37,042 bases of DNA, taken from positions 1 to 37,042 of the forward strand of contig JAPPGG010000002.1 in the NCBI GenBank assembly GCA_028875055.1, in the 5' to 3' direction. The notes under the pieces were generated by a model that was given only the letters and a program-made list of their open reading frames with translations, was not told the origin of the DNA and did not search any database. Of the stretch, positions 23,382-36,430 are shown in pieces. The stretch comes from Chloroflexota bacterium. Lineage in GTDB: Bacteria > Chloroflexota > Dehalococcoidia > Lucifugimonadales > UBA3495. Within the stretch, counting starts at the first letter, position 1. Each line of letters begins with the position of its first letter. The position numbers and the translations under genes are program-made.

Positions 23382-23909
23382 CTATCCTCCCTCAGGGCAA
23401 AGGACTGCCCTCACTCTCTCCGCCACATCCTCCGGCGTCAACTCATCGGTATCAATGCAATGGTGCGCCTGCCCGTAAGCCTGGGCGCGTTGTGCCAGCA
23501 ATTCCCGTATCCGCCCCAGCGGATCAGGACCGGCCAACAGGGGCCGCACCGCCTGCCCCGACTCGTCGTCGGCCTTGAGCCTGTGGTAGATGGTTTCCGG
23601 ACGGGCCTGTAAACAGAAAACTGTCCCGCCCTCCAGCATTTCCCGCCTGTTGTCGGGGTCAACGAAGGCCCCGCCCCCGGCGGAGATTATCTGTCCAGAC
23701 TGTCCGAACAACTCCGCGATAACCTGCCGCTCCAGGGACCGGAAAGCGGCCTCTCCATCGTCGGCAAAAATTTGTTCGATGGACTTCCCCGCCCGTTCCA
23801 CAATCACCGAGTCGGCGTCCACCAATGGCATGCCGGTGCGCTGGGAAAGGATTTGCCCCACGTGGCTCTTCCCCGAAGCCATGAAACCCACCAGGATAAT
23901 GTTGGCCAT
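23382..23909 (-). CDS. aroK: Shikimate kinase
   Basis: From ATG 23909 the protein has 175 residues, the usual size. It opens MANIILVGFMASGKSHVG, with Walker A GFMASGKS (8-15). The shikimate-binding Asp is in PLVDADSVI, and SAGGGAFVDPDNR supplies the GGG motif. RPLLAGPDPLGRI is the lid. It phosphorylates shikimate with ATP. A GTG at 23924 would add five residues, but it lies inside the repeat element at 23917-23997, so I prefer ATG 23909. The gene leads the operon with the unknown gene and aroB. Confidence 0.94.
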   Translation of the reverse strand: MANIILVGFMASGKSHVGQILSQRTGMPLVDADSVIVERAGKSIEQIFADDGEAAFRSLERQVIAELFGQSGQIISAGGGAFVDPDNRREMLEGGTVFCLQARPETIYHRLKADDESGQAVRPLLAGPDPLGRIRELLAQRAQAYGQAHHCIDTDELTPEDVAERVRAVLCPEGG

Positions 23910-32466: not shown

Positions 32467-33132
32467 ATGCAAAGAGCGGACTTCGACCGTCAGCTCGCCC
32501 ACCTGCAAGAAGAGATCGCCCTCATGTCCAATGTGGTGGACAAGGCCATTTACCGGTCGGTGGAAGCCCTGAAGAATCGTGATCTGGCCGAATCCCAGGC
32601 GGTCATAGACGGCGACGACTACATCGACCAGAAACGGTACGATATCGAGGAATTGTGCGTTGACCTGATTGCCACCCGTCAGCCCATGGCCGTTGACCTT
32701 CGCGCCATCGTCGCCATGCTCCATATCGCGGTGGAGCTGGAACGCATGGGCGACTATGCCGAGGGCATCGCCAAGATCAGCCTGCTTATGGGCGACGAAC
32801 CGCCCCTGAAACCCCTCATCGATATTCCCCGCATGGCCAACAAGGCCACGGAAATGTTGCGCGACAGCGTTGACAGCCTCATCGGGCGGGACCAGGACAA
32901 GGCCGAAAGGGTGATGGACGATGACGACGAGGTGGACGACCTGTATGACCAGGTTTACCGGGAACTGCTGCTCTTCATGATCCAGGACCCCCGCAGCATC
33001 CAGCGAGCCACCTACCTGCTGTGGGCCGCCCACGACCTGGAACGCATCGCCGACCGCGCCACCAACATCGCCGAACGGGTCGTGTTCCTGATTACCGGCA
33101 AAATGCGCAAGGAAAAAGCCAGCAAGTACTAG
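32467..33132 (+). CDS. phoU: Phosphate-transport regulator PhoU
   Basis: The 221-residue protein has two similar three-helix halves. The opening is FDRQLAHLQEEIALMSNVVDKAIYRSVEAL; the metal-binding motif EELCVDLIATRQPMAVDLRAIVAMLHIAVELERMGDYAEGIA occurs in the first half, and LYLLWAAHDLERIADRATNIAERVVF in the second. PhoU links the Pst transporter and PhoR kinase to shut phosphate uptake. No pst or phoR gene is in the window. ATG 32467 has GGAGGTGG directly upstream, so I reject a GTG six codons earlier. Confidence 0.94.
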   Translation: MQRADFDRQLAHLQEEIALMSNVVDKAIYRSVEALKNRDLAESQAVIDGDDYIDQKRYDIEELCVDLIATRQPMAVDLRAIVAMLHIAVELERMGDYAEGIAKISLLMGDEPPLKPLIDIPRMANKATEMLRDSVDSLIGRDQDKAERVMDDDDEVDDLYDQVYRELLLFMIQDPRSIQRATYLLWAAHDLERIADRATNIAERVVFLITGKMRKEKASKY

Positions 33133-33495
33133 ACCGGGGCCCCGGAGAAAACCGGATCTGCAAGGATTAGCGGGGAGCCTCCGTCGAACCGGAAGCGCCG
33201 GGAAAGCAGGATTCCCTACCTTCTCTGCGGCCTTGAGCCGCCCAACTCCATTTGCACATCCCACCTGGGCGCCGGTTCAGGGGCCGAATCAGAAATCATC
33301 CGGTGATGTGGCAGCTGCGGCCAGGGCAAGCGCGGCCAGGGCATCACCCCCCTTCTGACCTGCCGCCGCCAGGAGGATGGAAGCCTTGAAATGCGATGCA
33401 GGGGCGCACGTCCATGCGCCCCTGCATTTTTCCGTCTCCCCGGTCTTTCCTGCTTGCCCCTTGAATCCAGCGGCCACCCGGCTATGCGAATCCGA
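33133..33495. other. Convergent intergenic region with direct and inverted repeats
   Basis: The 12-base direct repeat GCGGCCAGGGCA occurs at 33317-33328 and 33332-33343, enclosed by GGTGATG (33302-33308) and CATCACC (33342-33348). GCGGC/GCCGC forms a small hairpin near 33220-33236. The strong terminator-like palindrome at 33396-33431 ends the region. A small transcript ending there is possible. No protein gene is convincing. Confidence 0.4.
33396..33431 (+). terminator. Palindrome with T-run, terminator-like
   Basis: ATGCAGGGGCGCA (33396-33408), loop CGTCCA, TGCGCCCCTGCAT (33415-33427), then TTTT. The thirteen-pair stem is perfect. It is 264 bases after phoU, so it ends either a long 3' end or a separate small transcript. 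Its core (GCAGGGGCGC/GCGCCCCTGC) belongs to the same type of palindrome as 17717-17745. Confidence 0.7.
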
Positions 33496-34401
33496 TCACG
33501 CAATCAGGGCCAGTTGTTGTGCCTGGCGCGGCGCGTTCAGTTCGCGGGGCGGAGTAACCGAGGGCAGGTGATAAACCCTTCGGGCCTCCTCCACCAGGGC
33601 CAGCACCGATTCGGTATAGTCCTTGTCGGCGTAGGTGTTCCGGTACAAACGCAGATAGCCTGCGGTCAGGTGCGGGTAAGACTCCCGCAGCATGGGCATG
33701 AACCATTCCCTGGAGCCGGGCTTCAGGAAAAGAAGGTTGCCGGACAGGAACTGGGCGTGGTGGCGGGCCGCAGCCTGGACCGTCTCATTGATGGCCTCGG
33801 CGCTGTCGGAGATGCCAGGCAGCAGGGGCGCCATCATCACCCCCGCAGGTATGCCGCTCTCCACCAGGAACTGCATCGCTTCCAGCCTGGCTATGGGGCT
33901 GGGCGTCCCGGGTTCGGTGCGCCTCCAGACCTGCTCGTCCACGCTGCCCACGCTGAAAATTACCTGTACATCGGCCGCGTGGTAAAGCTCTCTCAATACG
34001 TCCACGTCCCTCCGCACCAGCACGCCCTTGGTGGTAATAGAGGCGGGATTACGAAGATCGGCCAGGACCTGGATAATTTGCCTGGTCAGCTTGTACTGGG
34101 CCTCGGCGGGTTCGTAGGGGTCCGATGCCGTGCCTATGGCTACAGGCTCGCCCTTCCACTTGGGCCGGCGCAACTCGTCGCGCAGTACCTGGGCAGCGTT
34201 TACCTTGGCGAAAACGCGTTGGTCGAATTCCTCGCCCGAGTTCATCCCCCAGAATTCGTGGGTGGGCCTGGCATAGCAGTAACGGCAGGCGTGACGGCAG
34301 CCGCGATAGGGGTTCAGGGTCCAGCGAAAGGGATACCCAGGCACATCAATTCGGTTAAGCAGGGACTTGCAGGTGATCTCCTGAACCTCAGCTTGAGCCA
34401 T
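33496..34401 (-). CDS. Radical SAM protein, SplB-like (photolyase-type lyase family)
   Basis: The 301-residue protein has the radical-SAM cluster CxxxCxxC as GCRHACRYCYAR (Cys35, Cys39, Cys42), preceded by LNPYRGCRHAC, the pattern of the Rv2578c/SplB-like group. GTASDPYEPAEAQYKLTRQIIQVLADLRNP and VIFSVGSVDEQVWRRTEPGTPSPIARLEAMQFLVESGIPAGVMMAPLLPGISDS are also family-like. True SplB repairs spore photoproduct; this group is wider and its substrate is mostly unknown. ATG 34401 follows GAGGGAGTG. Its promoter (34427-34471) carries inverted arms resembling SOS boxes, which would suit a DNA-repair role. Confidence 0.85.
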   Translation of the reverse strand: MAQAEVQEITCKSLLNRIDVPGYPFRWTLNPYRGCRHACRYCYARPTHEFWGMNSGEEFDQRVFAKVNAAQVLRDELRRPKWKGEPVAIGTASDPYEPAEAQYKLTRQIIQVLADLRNPASITTKGVLVRRDVDVLRELYHAADVQVIFSVGSVDEQVWRRTEPGTPSPIARLEAMQFLVESGIPAGVMMAPLLPGISDSAEAINETVQAAARHHAQFLSGNLLFLKPGSREWFMPMLRESYPHLTAGYLRLYRNTYADKDYTESVLALVEEARRVYHLPSVTPPRELNAPRQAQQLALIA

Positions 34402-34426
34402 AACAACACTCCCTCTGTCCACAAAC

Positions 34427-34471
34427 TAGAACAAGCGTCCTAATCGTACAGATGTTCTATAATGTTGTCAA
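34427..34471 (-). promoter_or_regulatory. Radical SAM promoter with GAAC/GTTC-type inverted operator
   Basis: On the minus strand a perfect TTGACA (plus 34466-34471), 17 bases, TACGAT (34443-34448). TAGAACA (34427-34433) and TGTTCTA (34453-34459) are perfect inverted arms on both sides of the -10. Each also forms an imperfect GAACnnnnGTTC-type box (GAAC-AAGC-GTCC and GTAC-AGAT-GTTC). Confidence 0.65.
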
Positions 34472-35098
34472 CCTCTGAGTTCTCGGGCAATCGAGCTCTA
34501 TTTCCCCTTGAATTGCTCCGGTCTGGCAGCCAGGAATCACGTCGAAGCGTGCCCACATCCCGCTTTTAACAGGCTATGTCTATGGCATGCCGGTGATTCG
34601 ACCAGTCCGGACACGTTCCAATCCACCTCATTTGTCCATTATATGCCCCAGTACCCGGCTTGACGAACAGATGCCCCAATACCCAATAGTGGTAGCTTTG
34701 CGATTCGGGGGGGTTATGGCAGGCAGGGGAGGTTTCAAACCCGCCCTGACTGCTTATCGACCGTTCTCCCTGTGCGATATCACCCAAAATGGAGCATTTG
34801 CCTTGATAGTCCCTGTATTGCTTTTCAACCGGCGGGAAGCTTGAGCCCTCTGCGGTTCAGGCATTTTACGGGTCAGGAGTGTAAAAGACCGTGAGACCGG
34901 TCCACACGGGAGCTCAGACTTGGCGGAGGTTCCGTGGCGGCCTGCTCTGTCGTACCGGTTAAAGCCGGTATCAGGGAGTCCCTGCCACGCCTGACCTGTG
35001 GACGCCGCCAGGATTGCCTGATTGCGGCCTGTGCCGAATGGCGCGTTCCCCGCCACCGAGGCTCACAAACCTTGGACGGTTGCCAGGCCGGAATGTTT
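34472..35098. other. Repeat-rich non-coding stretch before the alcohol dehydrogenase
   Basis: No credible gene lies here. GGCAGGGGAGGTTT/AAACCCGCCCTG (34723-34750) is a decayed copy of the palindrome at 17717. TACCGG-TTAAAG-CCGGTA forms a hairpin near 34959-34976. GTTTTCGACAAGCTCAGC near 35094 resembles another short element frequent between genes in environmental genomes. Short frames on both strands look like translated repeat sequence. Confidence 0.5.
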
Positions 35099-35128
35099 TC
35101 GACAAGCTCAGCGCCAGCGGTATAGAAT
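35099..35128 (+). promoter_or_regulatory. Promoter of the alcohol dehydrogenase gene
   Basis: TCGACA (35099-35104), 18 bases, TAGAAT (35123-35128). The leader would be about 105 bases and contains the hairpin CACGCC-GCCGGAA-GGCGTG (35155-35173). Confidence 0.5.
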
Positions 35129-35238
35129 GACACACCTGTCAGGCAGTCAAAGTCACGCCGCCGGAAGGCGTGCCGGACAGTGATTCAGACAGGCTTTGTC
35201 GGTACCGCAATCACCCCTGCTCTTGAGGACACTCCGAA

Positions 35239-36270
35239 ATGAAAGCGATGGTTCTGGAGCAATTCAATGCTCCACTGAAGTTGAACGAAGTCCCCGACCC
35301 CCTCATGGGCCCGCGCGACGTGATAATCAGGGTGGTGGCCAATGGCCTTTGCGCCACCGACCTGAAAATATCCGGTGGCCTCGTCCCCACCGTGCCCCTG
35401 CCCCATATACCGGGCCACGAAGCGGCCGGCGAGGTCGTTGAAGTCGGCGCCGAAGTGCCGGGCCTCCAGAAGGGGGACCGCGTCACCGTGTATCCCACCG
35501 AAGGCTGCGGCTTCTGCGACTACTGCCGCAAGGGCATGGAGAACTACTGCGTTACCGCCCCCCGCACCGGTTTCGAAATCAACGGCGGCTTCAGCGAGTA
35601 CATGCGCGTATCCGGCCGCAACGCCGTGAAAATCTCCCCCGATGTGCCCTGGGAAGAGGCTGCCATCATCCCCGACGCCATTGCCAGCGTTTACCACGCG
35701 CTTACCCAGCGGGCCGCAATCCAGCCCGGGGAAACCGTGGTAATTGTGGGCATCGGGGGACTGGGTATCCACGCCATGCAGATGGCCAAAATCATGGGCG
35801 CCCGGGTAATTGCCGCCGACGTGGTGCCCGACAAGCTGCAGGGAGCCGAGCAGTTCAATCCCGACGTCATCGTCAACAGTCGCGCGGAGAGCCTGCCCGA
35901 ACGGGTCAAGGAGCTAACCAACGGCCTGGGCGCCGACGTTGTGGTCGAGGGCGTGGGCGGAGAGGCAGTGGCGGCCGTCCTGCCCGACAGCGTCGCCAGC
36001 CTGAGGTTGGGTGGCCGGCTGGTTATCCTGGGCTATAACTACGGCATCCCCCTGGCGGTGGACACTGCCGATCTGATCTACGGCCAGTGGAGCATCCTCG
36101 GCACCCGCGCCTCAAATCTGCAGGACGTGGTGGAAGTGGTGAAGCTGGTGGAACAGGGACAGCTTAAACCGGTGGTTTCGGAAACTTATCCCCTTGACGA
36201 CGTGGAACAGGCCCTGGCAAAACTGCGGGAAAGCCCGCCTCTTGGGAGGATTGTGCTTCAGTCCCCGTAG
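35239..36270 (+). CDS. Zinc-dependent alcohol dehydrogenase (MDR superfamily)
   Basis: The 343-residue protein keeps the catalytic zinc ligands Cys38 (GLCATD) and His60-Glu61 (PGHEAAGEV). The structural zinc site is complete: Cys90, Cys93, Cys96 and Cys104 (GCGFCDYCRKGMENYC). The Rossmann motif is GIGGLGIHAMQMAK. It should oxidise or reduce an alcohol/aldehyde pair with NAD(P); the substrate cannot be read from the sequence. ATG 35239 follows GAGGACACTCCGAA. It is monocistronic, with a long leader. The tRNA gene follows on the opposite strand. Confidence 0.92.
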   Translation: MKAMVLEQFNAPLKLNEVPDPLMGPRDVIIRVVANGLCATDLKISGGLVPTVPLPHIPGHEAAGEVVEVGAEVPGLQKGDRVTVYPTEGCGFCDYCRKGMENYCVTAPRTGFEINGGFSEYMRVSGRNAVKISPDVPWEEAAIIPDAIASVYHALTQRAAIQPGETVVIVGIGGLGIHAMQMAKIMGARVIAADVVPDKLQGAEQFNPDVIVNSRAESLPERVKELTNGLGADVVVEGVGGEAVAAVLPDSVASLRLGGRLVILGYNYGIPLAVDTADLIYGQWSILGTRASNLQDVVEVVKLVEQGQLKPVVSETYPLDDVEQALAKLRESPPLGRIVLQSP

Positions 36271-36353: not shown

Positions 36354-36430
36354 TGGTCGGGGCGGCCGGATTTGAACCGGCGACCCCCTGCACCCCATGC
36401 AGGTGCGCTCCCGGGCTGCGCCACGCCCCG
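36354..36430 (-). tRNA. tRNA-Pro (anticodon GGG)
   Basis: On the minus strand the acceptor CGGGGCG pairs with CGCCCCG, followed by discriminator A and an encoded CCA (36354-36356). The anticodon stem CCTGC/GCAGG holds the loop ATGGGGT, giving anticodon GGG. The T arm is GCCGG-TTCAAAT-CCGGC. The cloverleaf is complete, with 77 bases including CCA. A promoter lies just upstream (36444-36472). Confidence 0.96.

Follow-up and report, generated by a model that had tools for sequence, protein, structure and literature searches.

A promoter whose −10 hexamer is bracketed by two perfect inverted arms precedes the radical SAM gene studied here, and this raises the question which regulator would bind at this place and under which conditions the gene would be expressed. 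We analysed the site in the context of the window, that is, the whole stretch of 37,042 nucleotides, which is contig C27 of a 75-contig, 3.75-Mb assembly. Our results make it very likely that we are dealing with an SOS operator under LexA control, consisting of two abutting GAAC-N4-GTTC boxes on a near-consensus sigma-70 promoter.

Promoter, boxes and gene start

The features of the region are the following.

34466–34471, minus strand: −35 hexamer TTGACA (direct reading and promoter scan; unchanged in five congeneric genomes)
34443–34448, minus strand: −10 hexamer TACGAT, separated from the −35 hexamer by a 17-base spacer (direct reading and promoter scan)
34444–34459, either strand: putative LexA box 1, minus-strand TAGAACATCTGTACGA, overlapping spacer and −10 (13.7 bits, rank 1)
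34427–34442, either strand: putative LexA box 2, plus-strand TAGAACAAGCGTCCTA, over the predicted transcription start (11.0 bits, rank 3)
34427–34459, either strand: perfect 7-base arms TAGAACA (34427–34433) and TGTTCTA (34453–34459) (direct reading)
34409–34414, minus strand: ribosome-binding-like AGGGAG, 7 bases upstream of ATG 34401 (by eye)
33496–34401, minus strand: Rv2578c-like radical SAM protein of 301 amino acids with the conserved start ATG 34401

The minus-strand TTGACA-17-TACGAT promoter of the initial annotation is recovered by direct reading as well as by a promoter scan of 33100–35400, which yielded three promoter-like sites where 0.6 are expected. The perfect arms that had been described around the −10 hexamer are also present, and they had been taken for an SOS-like operator of the LexA type. 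This assignment holds insofar as the site fits the lineage-specific LexA motif; the arms themselves, however, do not appear to act as a unit. Each arm sits in its own near-palindromic 16-mer with one mismatch from GAAC-N4-GTTC, and both 16-mers abut, with box 1 over the −10 hexamer and box 2, which is imperfect and weaker than box 1, over the predicted start site. Judged from the sequence, the arms are thus the outer half-sites of two abutting boxes and not the unit of recognition.

The conserved start codon of the gene is ATG 34401 (MAQAEVQEITCK). As nearly all relatives begin with M-A-x-A-E/D-V, this codon is the likely start, and GTG 34422, which would add seven residues, was rejected. With this start the transcript would have a leader of ∼35 nt carrying the AGGGAG (34414–34409) after the predicted transcription start. 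Between the radical SAM gene and its divergently oriented, alcohol-dehydrogenase-like neighbour lies a long intergenic stretch (34472–35238), in which a second promoter-like site is found (TCGTCA-17-TATAAT, 34666–34638, minus strand). A tRNA-Pro (ggg) is encoded on the minus strand at 36354–36430.

The LexA motif of the lineage

LexA is encoded in the genome of the window (G000:C46; TIGR00498, 171 bits with a cut-off of 111), and by eye the protein has the A-G in GRIAAGSP as well as the Ser and Lys of the dyad. A motif was trained solely on the lexA upstream regions of 29 related genomes, so that the radical SAM gene was never included. The resulting motif, CAGAACATATGTTCTG, comprises 28 sites with 14.4 bits and is located near the start codon in most cases. 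According to the initial annotation, a clearly different LexA consensus in this lineage would speak against the proposed operator; the consensus obtained from the lexA promoters alone, AGAACATATGTTCT, is of the GAAC-N4-GTTC type. In the genome of the window the lexA site reads GAGAACATTAGTTTTA, and AGAACATTAGTTTT lies immediately upstream of the lexA start. Within the genus, the lexA promoter (L002 2410–2455) has longer inverted arms, ATGTTCTCA and TGAGAACAT, which are 13 bases apart around the −10 hexamer; of the two halves only the downstream one amounts to a complete box.

When all 37,027 positions of the window were scored with this lexA-only motif, both boxes came out at the ranks listed above, and rank 2 (position 23764) lies within a coding frame. 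Mere counts are less informative. The loose pattern GAACNNNNGTNC occurs six times in the window with 4.6 occurrences expected, which is not above chance. Pattern searches across the genome gave 19 places for MGAACAWNNGTNY, two of which are the boxes of the window, compared to 14 for the reversed pattern, so this pattern is not over-represented; the exact GAACNNNNGTTC was found at 63 palindromic places compared to 46 in the reversed control and is not strongly enriched. A count of 19 versus 14 proves nothing, and it is position, score and conservation that mark the true sites.

Conservation in related genomes

Upstream of the orthologous radical SAM genes of 30 related genomes, including the genome of the window, a box of at least 8 bits is present in 28 and of at least 10 bits in 25 cases, although these relatives are not independent of one another. 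With 500 column-permuted motifs the means were 1.4 and 0.7, respectively, and the observed counts were never reached. Of 210 control windows taken from these loci only one reaches 8 bits, and in 26 of the 30 genomes the upstream box is the top place of the entire 2.5–3.9 kb locus. Exceptions are G037, which has no box upstream of its orthologue, and G032, which has weak boxes only. Within the genus the −35 hexamer and both boxes are kept while the flanks vary, and the second box is kept in G001–G004.

These data bear on two other explanations of the site. The boxes could be a chance resemblance in an AT-rich promoter, as one would expect 4.6 occurrences of a degenerate pattern across the window. 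This explanation is hardly credible given that the two boxes rank first and third among all window positions, and it is rejected by the 28 of 30 relatives with a box as compared to the control windows and the permuted motifs. Alternatively, LexA could have nothing to do with the site, the 33-bp palindrome as a whole being either the single operator of some different dimeric regulator or a hairpin of the mRNA. The arms would suit such a reading, being perfect 7-mers 19 bases apart on both sides of the −10 hexamer. We nevertheless regard it as very improbable, since the relatives keep the 16-bp boxes and not the palindrome (many have a single box, and the spacing of the boxes ranges between 13 and 19 bases) and since the boxes fit a motif derived from lexA promoters alone. 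In addition, a hairpin is hard to reconcile with a palindrome most of which belongs to the promoter and would not be transcribed.

From the promoter, the boxes and their conservation we infer the following regulation by LexA. A LexA dimer on box 1 would cover the −10 region and a dimer on box 2 the start site, and with LexA on both boxes RNA polymerase would be kept off the promoter. Upon DNA damage, RecA on single-stranded DNA would provoke the self-cleavage of LexA, and the strong TTGACA promoter would fire. As the promoter carries two side-by-side boxes of the lineage type, DNA damage most likely induces the radical SAM gene.

Other SOS genes of the genome

It had been proposed that the same site should be sought upstream of further SOS genes, and that its absence from known SOS genes would speak against LexA. 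In the genome of the window the same box precedes lexA (18.0 bits) and a gene for an imuB-like Y-family polymerase (17.5 bits), the next gene being the error-prone dnaE2 (747 bits). A box of 16.0 bits is found upstream of a repair-type radical SAM gene of family TIGR03916 (L207 1871–3243, C32:20370–21743), whose product has helix-hairpin-helix motifs and belongs to the uracil-DNA-glycosylase-linked type. Two boxes (15.4 and 13.4 bits) precede the gene of a 121-amino acid protein with a weak helix-turn-helix match (L208 1071–1479, C11:39570–39980), which we consider a candidate new SOS member. Furthermore, the perfect palindrome TAGAACAATTGTTCTA (19.6 bits) is located upstream of a small open reading frame which is followed by a weakly RuvC-like one (L209 1455–2410, C62:44455 onwards), and a box of 16.1 bits precedes a 204-codon open reading frame without assigned family (L210 1617–1632, C4:8117). 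In the congeners G001 and G002 sites of the pattern recur at the lexA, imuB-like/dnaE2, TIGR03916, helix-turn-helix and TAGAACAATTGTTCTA loci as well as at the radical SAM gene of the window; at the C4:8117 locus such a site was not found in G001 or G002.

The expectation did not hold for recA. The recA genes of G000, G001, G002 and G004 have no LexA box (best score −3.4 bits), whereas some other relatives have one. In the genome of the window recA is L092 (C46:84287–85252), and here as well as in L095, L096 and L097 the box is absent though lexA and the imuB-like/dnaE2 genes are boxed. A recA gene without a LexA box is unusual for an SOS system. Together these sites amount to a motif-level description of the SOS system in a largely uncultured marine-type Chloroflexota family.

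Occurrence in other phyla

Among named records, the gene has its closest counterparts in marine-type Chloroflexota/Dehalococcoidia assemblies, with identities of up to 72%. Orthologues of other phyla were fetched from a public genome collection and scored with the same lexA-derived motif. In the Actinomycetota 32 of 34 orthologues have a box of at least 8 bits not more than 300 bases upstream, and many of these boxes are the textbook TCGAAC-N4-GTTCGA. None of the 17 orthologues of the Acidobacteriota, two of which have short upstream regions, has a box of at least 8 bits; we take this phylum as an internal negative control. The Rv2578c-type radical SAM enzyme thus appears to have remained under LexA in both Chloroflexota and Actinomycetota, and the conserved control points to a cultured actinobacterium in which to test the enzyme.

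LexA control of SplB/radical SAM genes is already known in other phyla, and the Chloroflexota case adds to it. The splB/COG1533 genes are under LexA in both alpha- and beta-Proteobacteria (PMC3323433) and in Bacteroidetes (PMC8565304), and the core SOS regulon of Gram-positive bacteria as well as the Balneolaeota regulon include a radical SAM protein (PMC7739468). Likewise, for S. venezuelae a radical SAM gene is listed both among the genes bound by LexA and among those responding to mitomycin (PMC9380542). A mycobacterial “DNA repair photolyase” gene is RecA-dependent after mitomycin C (PMC8151990); this gene may be Rv2578c, a name which the paper does not give. In the literature searched we found neither a report of LexA control of such a gene for this Chloroflexota group nor a text joining Rv2578c and LexA.

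With the SOS regulons of Bacillus, mycobacteria and other Actinomycetota the system described here has in common the GAAC-N4-GTTC box type, its position over the promoter and, among its members, lexA, imuB-like/dnaE2 and the radical SAM gene. It differs by the consensus AGAACATATGTTCT, by the unboxed recA of the genus and by the pair of adjoining boxes at the promoter of the radical SAM gene. The SOS-controlled splB/COG1533 genes of alpha- and beta-Proteobacteria and of Bacteroidetes are likewise SplB-like genes under LexA, but LexA motifs and phyla differ.

The radical SAM enzyme

The activity of the gene product might be deduced from its family and its fold. The protein scores 315 bits (E 4e-94) with the Rv2578c model NF038135, which is below the curated equivalog cut-off of 430 and makes it a relative of this family and not a member by model; the PA0069 model yields 245 bits. 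The radical SAM domain is recognized (PF04055, 52.7 bits), and the CX3CX2C cluster motif is found at C35, C39 and C42. With the Rv2578c family and its actinobacterial relatives, to which it is 40–50% identical, the protein shares this motif as well as the SOS box of the actinobacterial orthologues.

The description as SplB-like is borne out by the predicted fold but not by the family model. The structure was modelled from 41 sequences (pLDDT 91), since 13 sequences had given a poor result (pLDDT 65). Its best match is spore photoproduct lyase, with Z 21.0 and an rmsd of 2.9 over 258 residues at 14% identity, followed by lipoyl synthase as the next family (Z 16.1). On the other hand, the spore photoproduct lyase model TIGR04070 gives 23.7 bits with a cut-off of 400, and a search of solved structures by sequence, with the single protein or with a profile, gave no significant match. 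Fold match and sub-cut-off score together suggest that the enzyme uses the lyase scaffold without being a member of the spore photoproduct lyase family. Besides the cluster cysteines spore photoproduct lyase has a hydrogen-donor cysteine, C140/C141. In the 41 aligned sequences C35, C39 and C42 are the sole invariant cysteines. With SplB (TIGR04070; PDB 4fhc and others) the protein has the predicted fold in common, and it may lack a conserved counterpart of the extra cysteine.

We infer that the product, a radical SAM enzyme of the predicted spore photoproduct lyase fold and of the Rv2578c/PA0069 type, most likely repairs or processes a nucleic acid lesion. It is conceivable, though rather unlikely, that the operator is indeed that of LexA and the enzyme serves another purpose than DNA repair, for example, the modification of protein, RNA or a nucleotide during stress. 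Radical SAM folds serve many chemistries, and both the low TIGR04070 score and the lack of a conserved cysteine beyond the cluster motif would fit such a role. Three points argue for repair instead: the top fold match of the predicted structure is, by a clear margin, a DNA repair enzyme; the apparent SOS control is conserved over two phyla; and the gene seems to share its regulation with the genes of translesion polymerases and with a further radical SAM gene of the repair type. Control by LexA that has been kept for so long would be a good argument for damaged nucleic acid as the target of this enzyme group.

A phased TGACA element

The promoters of the relatives contain another conserved sequence. 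TGAC-N9-TTG occurs upstream of 20 of 30 radical SAM genes, 17 of 29 lexA genes and 17 of 27 recA genes, the background being 0.073 per 300 bases. The extended pattern TGACA-N8-TTG-N20..22-TANNNT is found at 21 places in the genome of the window (reversed control 2) and at 7–100 places in eight relatives (control 0–1). When the gap was left free from 0 to 20, it was exactly 8 in 21 of 40 places, hence the TGACA element is phased. In the genome of the window it is located upstream of the following genes.

C46:84193 (L224): recA
C46:71427 (L223): lexA
C68:81980 (L230): ruvB
C70:66611 (L231): dprA

Further genes behind the element are mnmA, a TcmP gene and Uma2 in the same genome and, in relatives, those of recQ-type helicases and of a CBASS cyclase. 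In the genus of the window the element is missing from the radical SAM gene, which has instead the consensus TTGACA and two LexA boxes; in fact, the element and a second box tend not to occur together (Fisher p 0.004, ignoring kinship).

That recA, lexA, ruvB and dprA have a phased element in common suggests a second response to damage, and TGACA-N8-TTG may be its signal; it may also mark a promoter class of another meaning. Tentatively, and with more doubt than confidence, we suggest that two damage control systems meet on the radical SAM gene, namely, the LexA box and a LexA-independent activator reading a TGACA exactly 8 bases before the −35 TTG, and that the genus of the window would have lost the element. 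A search of the genome for a PafB/PafC-like WYL regulator gave one weak partial match (22.8 bits, in a 110-amino acid frame).

TGACA-N8-TTG also heads dispersed repeats. At least 14 of them are present in G019 (L310–L323), with the element and a LexA-like GAAC-N4-GTAC box over the −10 hexamer. These repeats have no Rfam match and share a conserved downstream stretch of ∼120 bases, and in several copies a small protein without assigned family (M..LRSQVDALLRKYATEVE) follows after ∼350–480 bases.
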